Assembly (NCBI RefSeq): GCF_002007105.1
Contig: NZ_MVBC01000001.1
Coordinates: 186,001 to 250,000 of the forward strand
Direction of reading: 5' to 3'
DNA from: Hymenobacter sp. CRA2
Lineage (GTDB): Bacteria; Bacteroidota; Bacteroidia; Cytophagales; Hymenobacteraceae
DNA: 64,000 nt
The notes below the pieces were generated by a model that did no database searches, was not told the origin of the DNA, and worked only from the letters and a program-made list of their open reading frames with translations. Shown here piece after piece: positions 43,755-49,671 of this stretch (the stretch's first letter is position 1; each line of letters opens with the position of its first letter). Made by a program: the position numbers and the translations under genes.

Positions 43755-43787
43755 TTTGCAATTCCAAATTTTGTGTACCTACCTTTG
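43755..43787 (+). promoter_or_regulatory. Promoter of the sulfate-assimilation operon
   Basis: TTTG at 43755-43758 and TACCTTTG at 43780-43787 are 21 bp apart, fitting Bacteroidota -33/-7 boxes. Transcription would begin near 43793, about 20 bases before the riboswitch P1 helix. Confidence 0.7.
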
Positions 43788-43811
43788 CTGCATCAATTCT
43801 GCCAAGGATTG

Positions 43812-43903
43812 TTTTTATACAGAGGCGTGGAGAGACAGGCTCCGTGAAGCGCCGGCAACCTCGGGACCAGCCCGAACGGTGCCAATTCCTGACCATATAA
43901 AAA
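43812..43903 (+). ncRNA. SAM-I (S-box) riboswitch
   Basis: P1 is formed by TTTTTATA (43812-43819) and TATAAAAA (43896-43903). Between them are the conserved class I SAM aptamer words: AGAGGCGTGGAGAGAC, a GGCTCCGTGAAGC hairpin side, CCGGCAACC, a short P3 stem TCGGGACCAGCCCGA, and GGTGCCAATTCCTGACC. No T-run terminator follows directly, so control may be translational or act through the downstream leader. In sulfur operons these elements switch expression off when S-adenosylmethionine is abundant. Confidence 0.92.
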
Positions 43904-43940
43904 CGCCGACGTCGTGAACTTCGACCTCAACCTCCGCGCC

Positions 43941-44033
43941 ATGAATGCTAGCTCCGCTGCCCCGCAGCCGAGCTTTTTGGGTTTCAACAGCTGCTGTTGC
44001 TGTTGCATGCCCATGGGCCGCGCCTGTTGTTGA
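43941..44033 (+). CDS. Polycysteine leader peptide upstream of cysH
   Basis: An ATG at 43941 opens a 30-codon frame ending TGA at 44031-44033; an in-frame GTG at 43914 would add nine residues. The peptide has seven Cys: residues 18-22 form CCCCC, and it ends RACC-stop. It lies 37 bases after the SAM riboswitch and 194 bases before cysH. Leaders with runs of the regulated amino acid are the hallmark of ribosome-stalling attenuators. I infer cysteine (charged tRNA-Cys) sensing. The frame is too short for composition statistics, but the Cys run in this place is hard to explain by chance. Confidence 0.7.
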   Translation: MNASSAAPQPSFLGFNSCCCCCMPMGRACC

Positions 44034-44100
44034 GGCTTTTACGACCTCTTTCCTACTCGCTGGAAACGACTGACAACTAAAGCGCACGGCTTCTTCGAGC

Positions 44101-44200
44101 GCCGCTTAGCCGTATCCGTCGGCCCCGCCGCTTGAGCCTGCCTCGCCGCCCGGCCATCAGCCCCCTTCCTTTTTTGCTTCCCCGACGCCGTTTGCCCCAG
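44101..44200 (+). promoter_or_regulatory. C-rich, G-poor RNA stretch (possible Rho-loading region)
   Basis: By my count about 47 of 100 bases are C and 23 are G, with a CCCCCTTCCTTTTTT run near the end and no stable hairpin that I can draw. It lies between the leader stop codon and cysH. A rut-like role is an inference from composition only. Confidence 0.3.
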
Positions 44201-44227
44201 AGCTGCGCGTCCTAGATTTTACTGCGC

Positions 44228-44977
44228 ATGTCGACTCTTATCGATGCACAAGTAGCCGAAATCCGGCAGCAATTAACCGGCGCCGACCCGCTGGATATTC
44301 TCCGTTTTATTGCCGCAGAATTTGCCGGCAAAGCCGCTTTTTCTACCTCTTTCGGGCTCGAGGATCAGGTAATTACCCACCTAATTTTTGCCCACAATTT
44401 ACCCATCGAAGTATTTACGCTCGACACGGGGCGTAATTTCCAGGAGACGTATTCGACCTGGAGCAAAACCGTACTCAAATACGGTAAAACCATCCGCGCT
44501 TACTACCCCCATCAGGACGAAGTAGCGGCGCTGGTGGAGCGCCAGGGGCCCAACGGCTTCTACGAAAGCGTGGACACGCGCAAGGCCTGCTGCCACGTGC
44601 GCAAGGTGGAACCGCTGAGCCGTGCCCTCACCGGCAAAGCCGCCTGGGTAACCGGCATCCGGGCCGAACAGTCGGCCAACCGCACCGGCATGCACGCCGT
44701 GGAGTGGGACGCCAACTACCAGCTCTTCAAAGTAAACCCGCTGCTGGACTGGACCTGGGAGCAAACCTGGGCCTTCGTTCGGGAATACAGCATTCCGCAC
44801 AACCCGCTGCATATGCAGGGCTTCGTGAGCATTGGTTGCGCGCCGTGCACGCGGGCCGTTAAGCCCGGTGAAGACTTCCGGGCCGGTCGCTGGTGGTGGG
44901 AAGACCAGTCGGCCAAGGAGTGTGGCTTGCACGCCACCGCCGCTGTCGTTCCTACTGCCACGCTCGAAGGCCATTAA
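44228..44977 (+). CDS. cysH: Phosphoadenylyl-/adenylyl-sulfate reductase
   Basis: The protein has 249 residues. The PAPS-reductase fold starts with AAFSTSFGLEDQVITHL, and IEVFTLDTGRNFQETY follows. Cluster cysteines are present as CC at 121-122 and CxxC at 204-207, and the catalytic Cys is in ECGLH at 231-235. The CC...CxxC set marks the [4Fe-4S] type that reduces adenosine 5'-phosphosulfate, so APS rather than PAPS is the likely substrate; this agrees with the absence of an APS kinase in the operon. It is the first enzyme gene after the riboswitch and leader. Confidence 0.94.
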   Translation: MSTLIDAQVAEIRQQLTGADPLDILRFIAAEFAGKAAFSTSFGLEDQVITHLIFAHNLPIEVFTLDTGRNFQETYSTWSKTVLKYGKTIRAYYPHQDEVAALVERQGPNGFYESVDTRKACCHVRKVEPLSRALTGKAAWVTGIRAEQSANRTGMHAVEWDANYQLFKVNPLLDWTWEQTWAFVREYSIPHNPLHMQGFVSIGCAPCTRAVKPGEDFRAGRWWWEDQSAKECGLHATAAVVPTATLEGH

Positions 44978-45108: not shown

Positions 45109-46023
45109 ATGCCTACGCTGCCTCGCATCGACTACCTCGACCGGCTCGAAGCCGAAGCCATCCACATCCTGCGCGAAGTGGCCGGGCAGTTTCAGCGCCC
45201 TGCGCTGCTGTTCTCGGGCGGCAAAGACTCCATTGCCTTGGTGCGCCTCGCCCAGAAGGCCTTTCGCCCCGGTAAGTTTCCCTTCCCGCTGGTGCACATC
45301 GACACCGGCCACAACTTCCCCGAGGTGCTGCAGTTCCGCGACCAGCTGGCCGCCGAGCTGGGCGAGCAGCTGATTGTGCGCCGGGTAGAAGATACCATCA
45401 AGCAGCGCGGCCTGCGCGAGCCGGGCGGCAAGTTTCCGAGCCGCAACGCCCTTCAGACCTACACCCTACTGGATACCATCGAGGAGTTCGGCTTCGACGC
45501 CTGCATCGGCGGGGCGCGCCGCGACGAGGAAAAGGCCCGGGCCAAGGAGCGCATCTTCTCGGTGCGCGACGAATTTGGCCAGTGGGACCCGCGCCGGCAG
45601 CGCCCGGAGCTGTGGAACATCTACAACGGGCAGATTCAGCCCGGCGAAAACGTGCGCGTGTTCCCCATTTCCAACTGGACCGAGCTGGACGTGTGGAACT
45701 ACATCCAGCGCGAGAACATCCTGCTGCCCAGCATCTATTTCGCCCACGAGCGCCGCTGCGTGGTGCTGCCCTCGGGCCAGCTGCTGGCCGTGACCGAGCA
45801 CCTGACGCTGGACGCCTCCGACGAGCTGACGACCCGGCAAGTGCGCTTCCGCACCGTGGGCGACGCCACCTGCACCGCCGCCGTGGAAAGCGACGCCCAC
45901 ACGCTAGAGGCCATCATCGAGGACATCCTGCAGGCCAAAGTCAGCGAACGGGGCGCCACCCGCCTCGACGACAAGATTTCGGAAACCGGCATGGAAGACC
46001 GGAAGCGCAACGGCTACTTCTAA
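45109..46023 (+). CDS. cysD: Sulfate adenylyltransferase subunit 2
   Basis: The protein has 304 residues, matching E. coli CysD. The ATP pyrophosphatase P-loop is SGGKDS at 36-41, then HIDTGHNFPEVL, GGARRDEEKARAKERIFSVRD, FPISNWTELDVWNYI and the C-terminal TRLDDKISETGMEDRKRNGYF. With CysN it makes APS from ATP and sulfate, GTP hydrolysis driving the reaction. It lies 131 bp after cysH and before cysN in the same operon. Confidence 0.97.
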   Translation: MPTLPRIDYLDRLEAEAIHILREVAGQFQRPALLFSGGKDSIALVRLAQKAFRPGKFPFPLVHIDTGHNFPEVLQFRDQLAAELGEQLIVRRVEDTIKQRGLREPGGKFPSRNALQTYTLLDTIEEFGFDACIGGARRDEEKARAKERIFSVRDEFGQWDPRRQRPELWNIYNGQIQPGENVRVFPISNWTELDVWNYIQRENILLPSIYFAHERRCVVLPSGQLLAVTEHLTLDASDELTTRQVRFRTVGDATCTAAVESDAHTLEAIIEDILQAKVSERGATRLDDKISETGMEDRKRNGYF

Positions 46024-46142: not shown

Positions 46143-47414
46143 ATGGACCTTCTCCGATTCATCACCTGCGGCAGCGTCGACGACGGCAAAAGCACCCTGA
46201 TTGGCCGTTTGCTCTACGATTCCGACGCCGTGTCCTTGGACGTGCTGGCCGCCCTGGAAGAGCAGAACCGCACTTCCGCCGCCGGTACCGTGGACCTGGC
46301 TTTGCTGACGGACGGACTGCGCGCCGAGCGGGAACAGGGCATCACCATCGACGTGGCGCATAAGTACTTCACCACGCCGCGCCGCAAGTTCATCATCACC
46401 GATACGCCCGGCCACGTGCAGTACACCCGCAACATGGTGACGGGTGCTTCCAACGCCGATCTGGCCATCGTGCTGGTCGACGCCCGGCAGGGCATCGTAG
46501 AGCAGACGCGGCGGCACACCATCGTGTCGGTCCTGCTCGGCATCAAGCGCTTCGTGCTGGCCGTGAACAAAATCGACCTGATGGGCTACTCCGAGGCCGT
46601 CTTCCACGACATCGTAGCCGATTACGCCGCCGTGGCCGCTCAGCTCGGCATCAAGCAGGTGGCCAATATTCCCATCAGCGCCCTGCACGGCGACAACGTG
46701 GTAAAGCCTTCGGCCAACTTGCCCTGGTACAAGGGGCCGAGCCTGCTGGAATACCTCGAAACGGTGCCGGTAGCCACCGAAGCCAACACCGACGCGGCGC
46801 GCTTCCAGGTACAGTACGTCATCCGCCCGCAAAGCGTGGAGCTGCCCGATTACCGCGGCTACGCCGGCCGCATTCAAAGCGGAGTGTACCGCCGTGGCGA
46901 CCAAGTGCTGGTGCTGCCCGCCGGCATCGAGACGACGCTGGAAGCCATTGAAATCAACCAGCAGGAAGCAGACGTGGCCGTGGCCCCGCAGGCGGTGGTA
47001 CTCCGCCTCACCGACGACGTGGACGTGAGCCGCGGCGACACCATCGTGCCGCTGGCGCTGGCCCCGGAGCCCACCCGCGAGCTGGAAGCCACGCTGTGCT
47101 GGATGGTGGAGCAGCCCCTGCGCGCGGGCCACAAGCTGCTGGTGCAGCACCACACGGCCAAAACCCGCGCCGTGGTGCAGGCCATCGTGGGCAAAACCGA
47201 CATCCAGTCCTTCGCCCAGCAGGAAGCCACCGAAGCCAAGCTCAACGACATCGTGCGGGTGCGGCTGAAAACGGCCCAGCCCCTGGCTGCCGACACCTAC
47301 CAGCAGAACCGCACCACCGGCGCCTTCATCCTGCTCGATGAGCAAACCGGGGCCACGCTGGCCGCCGGCCTGATTGAGCAAACGGTACTGGCCGAACCTG
47401 AATTTGAAATTTAA
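46143..47414 (+). CDS. cysN: Sulfate adenylyltransferase subunit 1 (GTPase)
   Basis: The protein has 423 residues. The translation-factor-type GTPase shows G1 GSVDDGKST (10-18), G3 DTPGH (VQYTRNMVTGASNADLAIVLVDAR after it) and G4 NKID. Beta-barrel domains II and III follow. The length shows a stand-alone CysN without the APS-kinase domain found in CysNC. It is the regulatory partner of CysD. Its 3' end faces a palindromic element and a broken sulfite reductase gene. Confidence 0.96.
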   Translation: MDLLRFITCGSVDDGKSTLIGRLLYDSDAVSLDVLAALEEQNRTSAAGTVDLALLTDGLRAEREQGITIDVAHKYFTTPRRKFIITDTPGHVQYTRNMVTGASNADLAIVLVDARQGIVEQTRRHTIVSVLLGIKRFVLAVNKIDLMGYSEAVFHDIVADYAAVAAQLGIKQVANIPISALHGDNVVKPSANLPWYKGPSLLEYLETVPVATEANTDAARFQVQYVIRPQSVELPDYRGYAGRIQSGVYRRGDQVLVLPAGIETTLEAIEINQQEADVAVAPQAVVLRLTDDVDVSRGDTIVPLALAPEPTRELEATLCWMVEQPLRAGHKLLVQHHTAKTRAVVQAIVGKTDIQSFAQQEATEAKLNDIVRVRLKTAQPLAADTYQQNRTTGAFILLDEQTGATLAAGLIEQTVLAEPEFEI

Positions 47415-47427
47415 CCGCTGACGGTCT

Positions 47428-47559
47428 ACCACAGAACGTCATGCTGAGCCCCGCGAGACATCTCGCGTGCTGACTTCAGGGAGTAACCCACGAGGAAATT
47501 ACCCCCGGACGTCAGTACGCAAGATTCCTCGACTTCGTCCGGAATGACGACCTACTACA
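47428..47559. mobile_element. Palindromic MITE-like element flanked by 9-bp direct repeats
   Basis: The element shares ACGAGGAAATTAC and AGATTCCTCG with the perfect repeat at 33084-33211, but its arms have diverged. TGACGGTCT occurs on both sides (47419-47427 and 47560-47568), as expected of a target-site duplication. It has no coding capacity. I infer a non-autonomous element. Confidence 0.6.
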
Positions 47560-47560
47560 T

Positions 47561-48151
47561 GACGGTCTGAAAAGCGAACCGTCCCTTTCGCCCGGCTTCC
47601 ACTCCGACGATTTTCGCCTGATAGGCAACCAAAACCTGGTCGTTGCCAACATCAGCGCCGCCGACCGCGGCCGCGTGGAGCAGGTGCTGACGCAGTACGG
47701 CGTGCTGGCCGGCACCGCGGAGCGCACGGCTTTGCGCCTGGGCGCGTTGGCCTGTGTGGCACTTAACACGTGCTCATTAGCATTTGCGGAAGCCGAACGT
47801 TATCTTCCCCAACTCCTTGACCGACTGGATGCTGTTATCCGGGCCCATGGCTTGGCCAACGAAGGCATCCTGATCCGCATGACCGGCTGCGCCCGCCCCT
47901 ACCTGGGCGAAATCGGGCTGGTGGGCAAATCGGTCGGCCGCTACAACCTGTACCTCGGCGCCAACCACGCCGGGGAGCGGCTCAACAAGCTGTACCGCGA
48001 AATGCTGGACGAAGAAGGCATCGTGCAGGAGCTTACGCCCCTGCTGGCGGCCTACGCCCAGCACCGCCTCCCGTCCGAACGCTTCGGCGACTTCGTCATC
48101 CGTCAGGGTTACGTCGCCGCTACCACCCACGGCCAAAACTTTCACGCCTAA
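47561..48151 (+). pseudogene. cysI: Remnant of assimilatory sulfite reductase hemoprotein subunit
   Basis: The open frame encodes the C-terminal third of a CysI-type sulfite reductase: DDFRLIGNQNLVVANI, ACVALNTCSLAFAEAERYLP, RMTGCARPYLGEIGLVGK, GRYNLYLGANHAGERLN and FGDFVIRQGYV. Intact proteins have some 350-400 more residues upstream; here similarity stops at a palindromic element. In E. coli CysI the motif is TGCPNGC; here four residues including one cluster/siroheme Cys are missing (TGC-ARPY), consistent with a 12-bp deletion between GGCTGC repeats. No good start codon is present. The next gene's ATG overlaps its stop. I infer a non-functional relic. Confidence 0.85.
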
Positions 48152-49671
48152 TGAACTCGTCTGCTTTGCCCCTCCAGCTGGCGGCCACCGGCCCGCCGGC
48201 CGACGACCCCACCCCGGCCGCTGGCAATGCCCTGTTCCCGGTTTTCCTGAAGCTCGAACAGCTGCGCGTGCTGCTCGTCGGCGGCGGCGCGGTGGGCCTG
48301 GAAAAGCTCACCGCCTTGCTGCGCAACAGCCCGGCCACGGCCATTACGGTCGTGGCCGGCAGCATTTCCAGCGAAATCCGCACGCTGGCTGCGCAGTACC
48401 CCAAGGTGCAGCTGCACGAACGTCCCTACCAGCTCACCGACCTCATCGGCCACGACCTGGTGCTCATCGCCACCAACGACCGGGCCCTGAACAGCCGCAT
48501 CAAGCAGGAAGCTACCGGCCACGGCCTGCTGGCCAACGTAGCCGACACGCCCGAGGAGTGCGACTTCTACCTAGGCTCGGTGGTGCAGAAAGGCGACTTG
48601 AAGGTGGCCATCAGCACCAACGGCAAGTCGCCGACCGTGGCCAAGCGCCTGCGCGACGTGCTCGGCGAAGTGCTGCCCGACGAGCTGAACGACGTGCTGC
48701 AGCACATGGGCGTCATCCGCAGCCGCCTCAAAGGCGACTTCGCCCAGAAAGTAAAGGCGCTGAACGAGGTAACGGCCGAGCTGGCCGAGTCGCCCGAAAC
48801 GACGATGTGGCGGCGCATTGCTACTCTCTCGCTGTTCGCGTTTGCCCTCATGCTGGGCATCAACGTGCTGACGATTTACTACACCTGGCCGGAAGTCTGG
48901 GGCGTGGTCAGCTCCGCGCAGACATTCTACATCTTCGTGGCCGTAGGCTTCGCCGCCCAGCTCGTCGACGGACTACTGGGCATGGGCTACGGCGTAGTCA
49001 CGGCCATCAGCCTGATGTCCCTGGGCCTGAACCCGGCGGCGGTCAGCGCCAGCATCCACACGGCCGAAATGTTTGCCAGCGGTGCCTCGGGCTATAACCA
49101 TTACCGCTTCGGCAACGTGAACCGCCGCCTGTTCCGCGCCCTGCTGATTCCGGGCATCCTGGGTGCGGTGAGTGGAGCATTTTTGCTCTCCAAGCTCGGC
49201 GAAGAGTACGCGGGTTACGTGAAACCCGTACTGGCCGCTTACCTGCTGCTGCTGGGCGTGCGCATCATCAGCAAGGCCTTCCGCAAGCCCGACCTGCGCA
49301 AGCGCAAGGTGAAGCACGTGGGCTGGCTGGCCGGCGCCGGCGGCTTCCTTGACTCGTTCGGTGGCGGCGGCTGGGGGCCTCTAGTGACCAGCACACTTAT
49401 CTCGCAGGGCCGCACGCCGCAGTACGTTATCGGCTCCGTGAGCCTGACAGAGTTCTTCGTCACCTTCGCCAGCGCCCTCACGTTCTTCGCTACCATTGGC
49501 ATTTCGCACTGGCAGGTGGTACTAGGGCTGATTGTGGGCGGTGTGGCGGCCGCGCCATTTGCGGCCCGCTTAGCGGGGCGCGTCTCCACCCGGGTTATGT
49601 TCCTGGGCGTCGGCACCATGGTTATCGTCTGGAGCCTGTGGGCACTGCGGAAAGTGTTTCTGCTGTTCTAG
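48151..49671 (+). CDS. Siroheme synthase N-domain fused to TauE/SafE (TSUP) sulfite exporter
   Basis: The protein has 506 residues. Residues about 28-215 match precorrin-2 dehydrogenase/sirohydrochlorin ferrochelatase (VLLVGGGAVGLEKLTALL with GGGAVG at 44-49, IATNDRALNSRIKQEA, CDFYLGSVVQKGDLKVAIST). From about residue 228, eight or so helices belong to TSUP (FAAQLVDGLLGMGYGVVTAI, NPAAVSASIHTAEMFASGASG, GGFLDSFGGGGWGPLVTSTL). The first part makes siroheme, the cofactor of sulfite reductase; the second should export sulfite. Coupling both in one gene fits a sulfur operon. It is translationally coupled to the cysI remnant. Confidence 0.9.
   Translation: MNSSALPLQLAATGPPADDPTPAAGNALFPVFLKLEQLRVLLVGGGAVGLEKLTALLRNSPATAITVVAGSISSEIRTLAAQYPKVQLHERPYQLTDLIGHDLVLIATNDRALNSRIKQEATGHGLLANVADTPEECDFYLGSVVQKGDLKVAISTNGKSPTVAKRLRDVLGEVLPDELNDVLQHMGVIRSRLKGDFAQKVKALNEVTAELAESPETTMWRRIATLSLFAFALMLGINVLTIYYTWPEVWGVVSSAQTFYIFVAVGFAAQLVDGLLGMGYGVVTAISLMSLGLNPAAVSASIHTAEMFASGASGYNHYRFGNVNRRLFRALLIPGILGAVSGAFLLSKLGEEYAGYVKPVLAAYLLLLGVRIISKAFRKPDLRKRKVKHVGWLAGAGGFLDSFGGGGWGPLVTSTLISQGRTPQYVIGSVSLTEFFVTFASALTFFATIGISHWQVVLGLIVGGVAAAPFAARLAGRVSTRVMFLGVGTMVIVWSLWALRKVFLLF

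Follow-up and report, generated by a model that had tools for sequence, protein, structure and literature searches.

The subject of this analysis is the leader of the cysH operon of Hymenobacter sp. CRA2, located in a stretch of 64,000 nucleotides (nt) of contig NZ_MVBC01000001.1 (positions 186,001 to 250,000) that is referred to, as a whole, as the window. The leader lies between a ferrochelatase gene and cysH and contains a class I S-adenosylmethionine (SAM) riboswitch aptamer (SAM-I), which is followed by a short open reading frame (ORF) with a run of Cys codons. Its parts and the genes downstream, with positions numbered from the first nucleotide of the window, are as follows.

43755-43787, plus strand: promoter-like element TTTG-N21-TACCTTTG, of the Bacteroidota sigma-A type with a TAnnTTTG -7 box.
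43812-43903, plus strand: SAM-I riboswitch aptamer (RF00162, model positions 1-108, 77.8 bits, gathering score 44.4).
43895-43903, plus strand: 3' strand of the aptamer P1 helix, AUAUAAAAA, placed by the covariance-model alignment.
43914-44033, plus strand: leader ORF with a GTG start, 39 codons and a TGA stop, the start being 10 nt past the aptamer end.
43992-44006, plus strand: run of five Cys codons (TGC TGT TGC TGT TGC), kept in relatives.
44025-44030, plus strand: two Cys codons just before the leader stop, read from the sequence.
44032-44048, plus strand: possible small hairpin GAGG...CCTC over the leader stop codon, from an alignment by eye.
44034-44227, plus strand: pyrimidine-rich spacer of 194 nt from the leader stop to cysH.
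44228-44977, plus strand: cysH, phosphoadenylyl-sulfate (PAPS)/adenylylsulfate reductase (NF002537, 266 bits; PF01507).
45109-46023, plus strand: cysD, sulfate adenylyltransferase small subunit (NF003587, 439 bits).
46143-47414, plus strand: cysN, sulfate adenylyltransferase large subunit (TIGR02034, 532 bits).
47675-48151, plus strand: C-terminal fragment of cysI, sulfite reductase hemoprotein (TIGR02041, positions 394-541 of 541).
48151-49671, plus strand: siroheme-synthase-like N-domain fused to a TauE-type permease domain (TIGR01470, PF01925).

The full-length match to RF00162, well above the gathering score, and the family profile matches of cysH, cysD and cysN bear out the preliminary description of this DNA, which had placed a class I SAM aptamer at these positions and sulfate-assimilation genes downstream of it. 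The same description had identified a Cys-rich frame at 43941-44033, which reads MNASSAAPQPSFLGFNSCCCCCMPMGRACC up to its stop; the frame is intact, with its five-Cys run and terminal Cys-Cys-stop, but the ATG at 43941 is not retained as its main start. This ATG is present in three of the seven genus cysH leaders, as against all seven for the GTG at 43914-43916, and it is an internal codon of the longer frame 43914-44033, whose translation is VNFDLNLRAMNASSAAPQPSFLGFNSCCCCCMPMGRACC. Because the GTG is found in all seven leaders and its distance from the aptamer matches the spacing found throughout the family, alignment indicates that the leader frame is probably 43914-44033, with 39 codons. 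The promoter-like element, whose TAnnTTTG consensus is given in the accessible text of PMC9723704, is retained in the alignment of the seven genus leaders, and the possible GAGG...CCTC hairpin is present in all seven, with an invariant sequence that leaves no covariation.

The combination of aptamer and Cys frame recurs in the genome (5.88 Mb in 45 contigs). Four of the five SAM-I aptamers found there are followed by a Cys-ending frame, and these precede cysH, an amino-acid permease gene, a RimK-like ATP-grasp gene and a gene for a pyridoxal phosphate enzyme of Cys/Met metabolism that was labelled metY from motifs; the fifth aptamer, at metH, has no Cys frame. The tandem arrangement to which the preliminary description had drawn attention is therefore real but is not a lone case, and it extends to several gene classes. 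In a set of eight genomes of the genus, for which all 35 SAM-I matches among those listed were read, the frame is present at 27/27 non-metH aptamers and at 0/8 of those at metH. A family set of 60 genomes from six genera contains 157 aptamer loci among the matches listed, of which 58 came from the window-genome, genus and family searches and the remainder were 99 of 100 further fetched regions; the hundredth (L420), which also has a Cys frame, was left out. Genes were classed by BLAST clusters and motif regular expressions, with 20 and later 13 loci being assigned by hand, Pfam was run on ten representative loci, and one locus missed by the regular expression (L297) was included by its match coordinates.

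In the family set, a Cys-clustered frame is found at 92 of the 98 loci with sulfur-assimilation, sulfhydrylase and transport-type genes and at none of the 57 with methionine-synthesis genes. By class, the counts are 35/37 for metY, 17/17 for cysH, 14/17 for the amino-acid permease, 11/11 for ATP-grasp, 5/5 for NhaC-like, 4/4 for M14 peptidase, 5/6 for TonB-receptor-like and 1/1 for NIR_SIR genes, and 0/46, 0/7 and 0/4 for metH, cystathionine-gamma-synthase (CGS)-like and hom genes, respectively; the remaining two loci are a peroxiredoxin-like gene (0/1) and a locus without a called gene (1/1). Even in the seven misses outside the methionine classes, which include the peroxiredoxin-like locus, a frame starts 3-10 nt past the aptamer and contains a Cys-Cys pair. 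Since the frame is so distributed, the split appears, for the main classes, to follow the pathway, methionine-making genes having the aptamer alone and genes of sulfur uptake and fixation the double device, which is also carried by the peptidase, NhaC-like and TonB-receptor-like genes. The M14 peptidase (L055, L237-L239) and TonB-receptor-like (L242, L258, L259 and L261) loci, of which L055 and L242 were assigned with Pfam, perhaps reflect the uptake or digestion of peptides as a sulfur source.

The geometry of the joint between the two elements is nearly constant. A start codon in the frame of the Cys run lies 6-12 nt past the aptamer in 91 of the 92 family leaders, the single exception (L299) having its start at 3 nt, as compared with starts at this distance in either of the other frames in 2/92 leaders and, in any frame, at 5/57 methionine-gene loci. 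The initiation region of this upstream ORF (uORF) thus adjoins the switching helix of the aptamer. In dinucleotide shuffles (9900 for 99 non-methionine leaders, which include the peroxiredoxin-like locus, and 5700 for 57 methionine-gene leaders), the composite feature is present in 91/99 real leaders and 15/9900 shuffled sequences for the former and in 0/57 and 0/5700 for the latter, and chance can be ruled out as the origin of the combination. The same layout is found in eight gene classes, in which the N-terminal parts of the leader peptides are dissimilar. Terminator-like hairpins directly behind the aptamer were found at only 3/98 of the Cys-type loci (1.8 expected) and at 2/46 metH loci (2.2 expected), whereas the CGS-like and hom loci have them in 10 of 11 cases (2.2 expected), and the Cys-type loci therefore appear to be without the usual transcriptional platform.

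The Cys codons are concentrated at the end of the frame. In 91 family frames, which have 26-55 codons with a median of 39, Cys accounts for 466/1365 of the last 15 codons as against 40/2276 of those before, and for 64, 76, 73, 63 and 47 of the 91 codons at the last five positions, counted back from the stop. The comparison of related leaders suggested by the preliminary description shows that the Cys run is kept whereas the rest of the peptide is variable, and relatives that have both the riboswitch and cysH retain the run, which makes two sensors in series, as proposed there, the best reading of the sequences. Gaps in the seven genus cysH frames number three, each of 9 nt, and the spacers behind them have 52 gaps of 1-5 nt, 31 of which are not multiples of 3. 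Met codons are enriched close to the Cys run, making up 7.7% of the final 18 codons versus 1.4% of those before, mainly in metY and cysH leaders. A run of five Cys codons is not in itself rare, since the pattern TGY x5 has 24 hits in the 5.88-Mb genome (11 for the reversed pattern), although it occurs once in the window, on either strand, that being in the leader frame; it is the position behind the aptamer that is beyond chance. Frames were listed for all 24 hits, and two are in leaders (L063 and L067). An origin of the leader runs as repeat or coding artefacts was rejected, as nine surveyed hits elsewhere, several with Leu-rich, signal-peptide-like starts, lie in or against longer ORFs in other frames, unlike the leader hits. 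In a residue control for runs of three near the stop, which used the first classification of the loci, 74 Cys-type loci gave Cys 66, Leu 61 (from the TGY run read in the +1 frame), Ala 18, Val 14, Arg 10, Pro 7 and fewer for others, and 53 met-type loci gave Thr 27, Arg 15, Ala 10 and Cys 0.

We read the leader as a serial two-input sensor, a SAM riboswitch whose expression platform would be the start of a cysteine-sensing leader peptide, and put the probability of this reading at roughly 0.7. Start sites in Bacteroidota generally depend on A-rich stretches and not on Shine-Dalgarno pairing. In this leader the start codon follows directly on the 3' strand of P1. In a fold predicted with neither ligand nor pseudoknot, positions 43894-43903 are unpaired with a value of 0.98, and the P1 duplex is estimated at about -7.0 kcal/mol. 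When SAM is absent, the A/U-rich strand would be free and ribosomes could initiate on the leader frame, but with SAM bound, P1 would form over the initiation region and the frame would be left untranslated. A ribosome translating the leader would gauge the supply of charged tRNA-Cys, so that a shortage of cysteine would make it stall at the Cys run near the stop, where it would keep the spacer from ending transcription (through Rho) or from hiding the next start. If the ribosome finished fast, or if there were none, the operon would be off; it would be on only with SAM and cysteine both low.

The downstream step of this mechanism draws on the composition of the spacers, C exceeding G in 84 of 92 with a mean C-G of 0.079 as compared with -0.010 in gene bodies, which suits a Rho-dependent end and makes the spacer at 44034-44227 a candidate for the site of the decision. 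Several results weigh against the serial reading. Met-class leaders are nearly as C-rich (mean C-G 0.069 versus 0.079). Terminator-like hairpins behind the frame are present in 29/92 leaders when 20.8 are expected from dinucleotide shuffles (10/35 versus 4.6 for metY and 3/17 versus 4.2 for cysH), so that the statement in the preliminary description that the Cys run lies exactly where attenuation would act is not upheld. Spacer structure is weak (class mean z from -0.79 to +0.82), and when the window leader is folded with the ribosome placed at various positions, the cysH start region is paired in every case. The proposed role of the stalled ribosome accordingly rests on base composition, terminators being not clearly enriched and structure weak. 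As regards the peptide, differences among the cysH frames number 177, 173 and 140 at codon positions 3, 1 and 2, and are thus not concentrated at third positions, and 6/98 loci carry a Cys-Cys pair only. The leaders are, in addition, related, which means that the counts are not independent, and copying between leaders is possible.

A first terminator scan, which gave 25/98 within 150 nt of the aptamer (5 in shuffled sequences) and 32/92 after the frame (12 shuffled), was discounted because it counted TTGTTG, which belongs to the Cys run, as a T tract. Consensus folds of the region behind the frame in three sets of leaders gave no shared structure, and candidate alternative hairpins in the metY leaders of genus g6 have a sign that could not be reconciled with antitermination. 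Translational coupling to cysH is unlikely, given the 194-nt spacer.

The device also thins out beyond the family, which is a further point against the serial reading. In a search that covered 197 genomes of the class, with gene names assigned by eye, 9/90 aptamer loci among the matches listed have a Cys-clustered frame, a minority even though metY-like genes have it in 6/12 cases. Of the nine, six are metY-like (two in family f2, four in family f4), one is metX-like (f9) and one PAPS-reductase-like (f51), and in these eight the frame starts 7-14 nt past the aptamer; the ninth, at the cysH locus L365 (f5), starts 112 nt past it. In L383 and L386 a start is present at +9 but no Cys run goes with it; L383 has in addition a TTG frame at +2 that ends in Cys-Cys. 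A Met- and Cys-rich frame is present at +8 in L377 (f7), and weaker Cys pairs in L351 and L353. Under a loose rule applied to the 600 nt upstream of 110 cysH loci, a Cys cluster is present at 24, in part certainly by chance, and missing at 86, and the device is therefore not general in the phylum. In three of the 110, L138 and L148 (Flavobacterium) and L216, the cysH leader contains a pair of short frames in tandem, both Met- and Cys-rich and of the MMMCMCC and MMMMCC type; no SAM aptamer was detected in L138 and L148, and in these three leaders Met and Cys are perhaps sensed by codons alone.

The best of the alternatives, although an unlikely one, is that two independent sensors share the leader, with the riboswitch acting on the operon separately and the fixed spacing reflecting a convenient start site. 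There is precedent for independent switches in tandem in the metE leader of Bacillus clausii, where the accessible part of PMC2258182 describes a SAM-I and an adenosylcobalamin aptamer; as in the present case there are two inputs per leader, but these are two aptamers with separate control of termination and no translated sensor is described. The Cys frame can also persist where no aptamer is detected. Among 30 cysH loci examined in the family (cysH was found in 45/60 genomes), 29 have the Cys frame; an aptamer core accompanies it in 20 and was not seen in nine, all from genus g6, whereas L100 has neither. Absence of the aptamer in g6 is based on cmscan for L102 and L109 and on a core-motif regular expression for seven more. 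Three further g6 leaders (L417-L419) carry the frame, giving a total of 12/12, and the Cys frame consequently seems to be functional on its own, a result that counts for the serial reading as well. The g6 frames (L102-L109, L112 and L417-L419) are near-identical, of the MVYSSYIKRMRFCCCSSCCCCC type. Within Hymenobacter, L113 (Hymenobacter sp. ASUV-10) has the Cys frame and no aptamer by cmscan, and L114 (H. nivis) has both. Independent action does not, however, account for the start lying 6-12 nt past the aptamer in all leaders but one, or for the scarcity of terminators directly behind the aptamer at these loci as opposed to those with CGS-like and hom genes.

A second alternative, which we consider very improbable, is that the TGY repeat works as an RNA pairing partner and not as codons. 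The frames favor TGT over TGC (325 versus 181) although the ORFs behind them favor TGC (46 versus 209), and in the g6 leaders pairing is possible between the bases just behind the frame and its terminal Cys codons and stop, with 98.8% of the alignment cells paired, a level reached by 2/500 shuffles. One pair in this g6 hairpin has changes on both sides, in three sequences, but the pair count is matched by 309/500 shuffles, and the segments were chosen by hand to enclose the structure; together these results give modest support for a structure that might be opened by a ribosome on the last codons of the frame. A pairing role would not explain why the run is at the end of a frame and in register with a fixed start (91/92 versus 2/92 for the other frames), or why it is Met codons, not TGY, that are enriched beside it. 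It is just as improbable that the function lies in the Cys-rich peptide itself, as a small thiol or metal-binding peptide produced along with the downstream genes, since, despite the in-frame indels of the genus cysH set and the conserved C-terminal Cys cluster, the sequence outside the run varies freely, the length is variable, third positions are not favored, methionine-synthesis leaders lack the frame altogether, and eight leader peptides matched no NCBIfam family above the cut-off (one listed hit, to listeriolysin S, has an E value of 0.11).

Some other properties of the locus may be recorded. The closest named relatives found for the CysH protein are from Hymenobacter (67 and 64% identity). 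In the alignment, the window aptamer, the one checked in this respect, is without helix P4, having 3 nt in place of 19 model positions, and in the genus the aptamers at cysH and permease genes mostly have the same length of 90-93 nt, those of metY and metH being 110-122 nt. A six-frame search extends the match of the cysI fragment to positions 367-541 of 541 of TIGR02041; the fragment is the sole match to this family in the genome, and among the other genus genomes five of seven have a full-length match and two of seven none. Between cysN and the cysI fragment, an inverted-repeat-like stretch seen by eye at 47430-47560 is perhaps a small mobile element tied to the loss of cysI.

The serial reading, a SAM riboswitch acting on the start of a cysteine-sensing leader peptide, has partial counterparts in published systems, which are compared here on the basis of the accessible portions of the cited papers. 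Leaders with Cys runs have been described in actinobacteria (PMC1262725, a Seliverstov-type analysis of 2005; Canestrari 2020). Like the present leader, the polycysteine leaders in PMC1262725 have a short ORF with a Cys run near its stop in front of sulfur genes, and the window leader, with all of these and retention in relatives, has the characteristics of this type. In Mycobacterium no terminator was found and Rho was suggested (PMC1262725), but these leaders are from another phylum and the portions available mention no riboswitch, whereas here an aptamer precedes the frame. The mycobacterial frames of Canestrari 2020 are, by the title of that paper, leaderless, unlike the present frame, whose start is behind the aptamer and 127 nt past the promoter-like element. 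The uORFC-8-2 peptide upstream of cysS in Rhodobacterales similarly contains cysteine codons, but there are two of them, with an intrinsic terminator and, in the text available, no riboswitch (PMC8632094). For Bacteroidota, the accessible parts of two transcriptome papers (PMC9723704 and PMC7366714) mention attenuation by leader peptides in F. psychrophilum and B. thetaiotaomicron, and the Rfam family Bacteroid-trp (RF01692), with a hit in L148, is a leader peptide with amino-acid codons and no riboswitch.

Riboswitches that act in the first place on translation of a small uORF are known from Mycobacterium tuberculosis, where the Mbox acts on Rv1805A (PMC12810186) and the B12 riboswitch of ppe2 on uPPE2 (PMC11260477), with Rho-dependent or translational effects on the downstream gene. 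These resemble the present case in the target of the riboswitch, but the ligands are Mg2+ and B12, the uORFs are not described in the portions available as codon-run sensors, and single leaders are involved. A Xanthomonas SAM-I riboswitch likewise combines the aptamer with a second, methionine-related input in one leader, but there uncharged initiator tRNA binds the expression platform directly, and the accessible text names neither a leader peptide nor cysteine (PMC7270179). The literature search, with most subscription papers outside its reach, returned no description that joins a SAM aptamer to a Cys-codon leader; as far as the literature searched shows, the parts are of known kinds, and the novelty lies in their joint, in how constant it is and in its extension over a regulon.

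With moderate confidence, somewhat less than in the serial sensor itself, we propose that the arrangement constitutes a regulon-wide RNA AND gate in the Hymenobacteraceae and in parts of the wider Bacteroidota class, in which the riboswitch would license a codon-counting leader peptide. Sulfur assimilation, sulfhydrylation and amino-acid transport would then jointly answer to SAM and cysteine with no protein regulator, and perhaps to Met-tRNA as well, given the cluster of Met codons next to the Cys run. It is usual to see riboswitches and leader-peptide attenuators as separate devices, and here they are apparently joined in series with a near-fixed geometry, which provides a testable case of a cell that weighs two end products of sulfur metabolism by RNA alone. 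Under this reading, what these Bacteroidota riboswitches act on would be a uORF start codon, which is a concrete target, and it can be predicted which of the unannotated small ORFs in many genomes are real.

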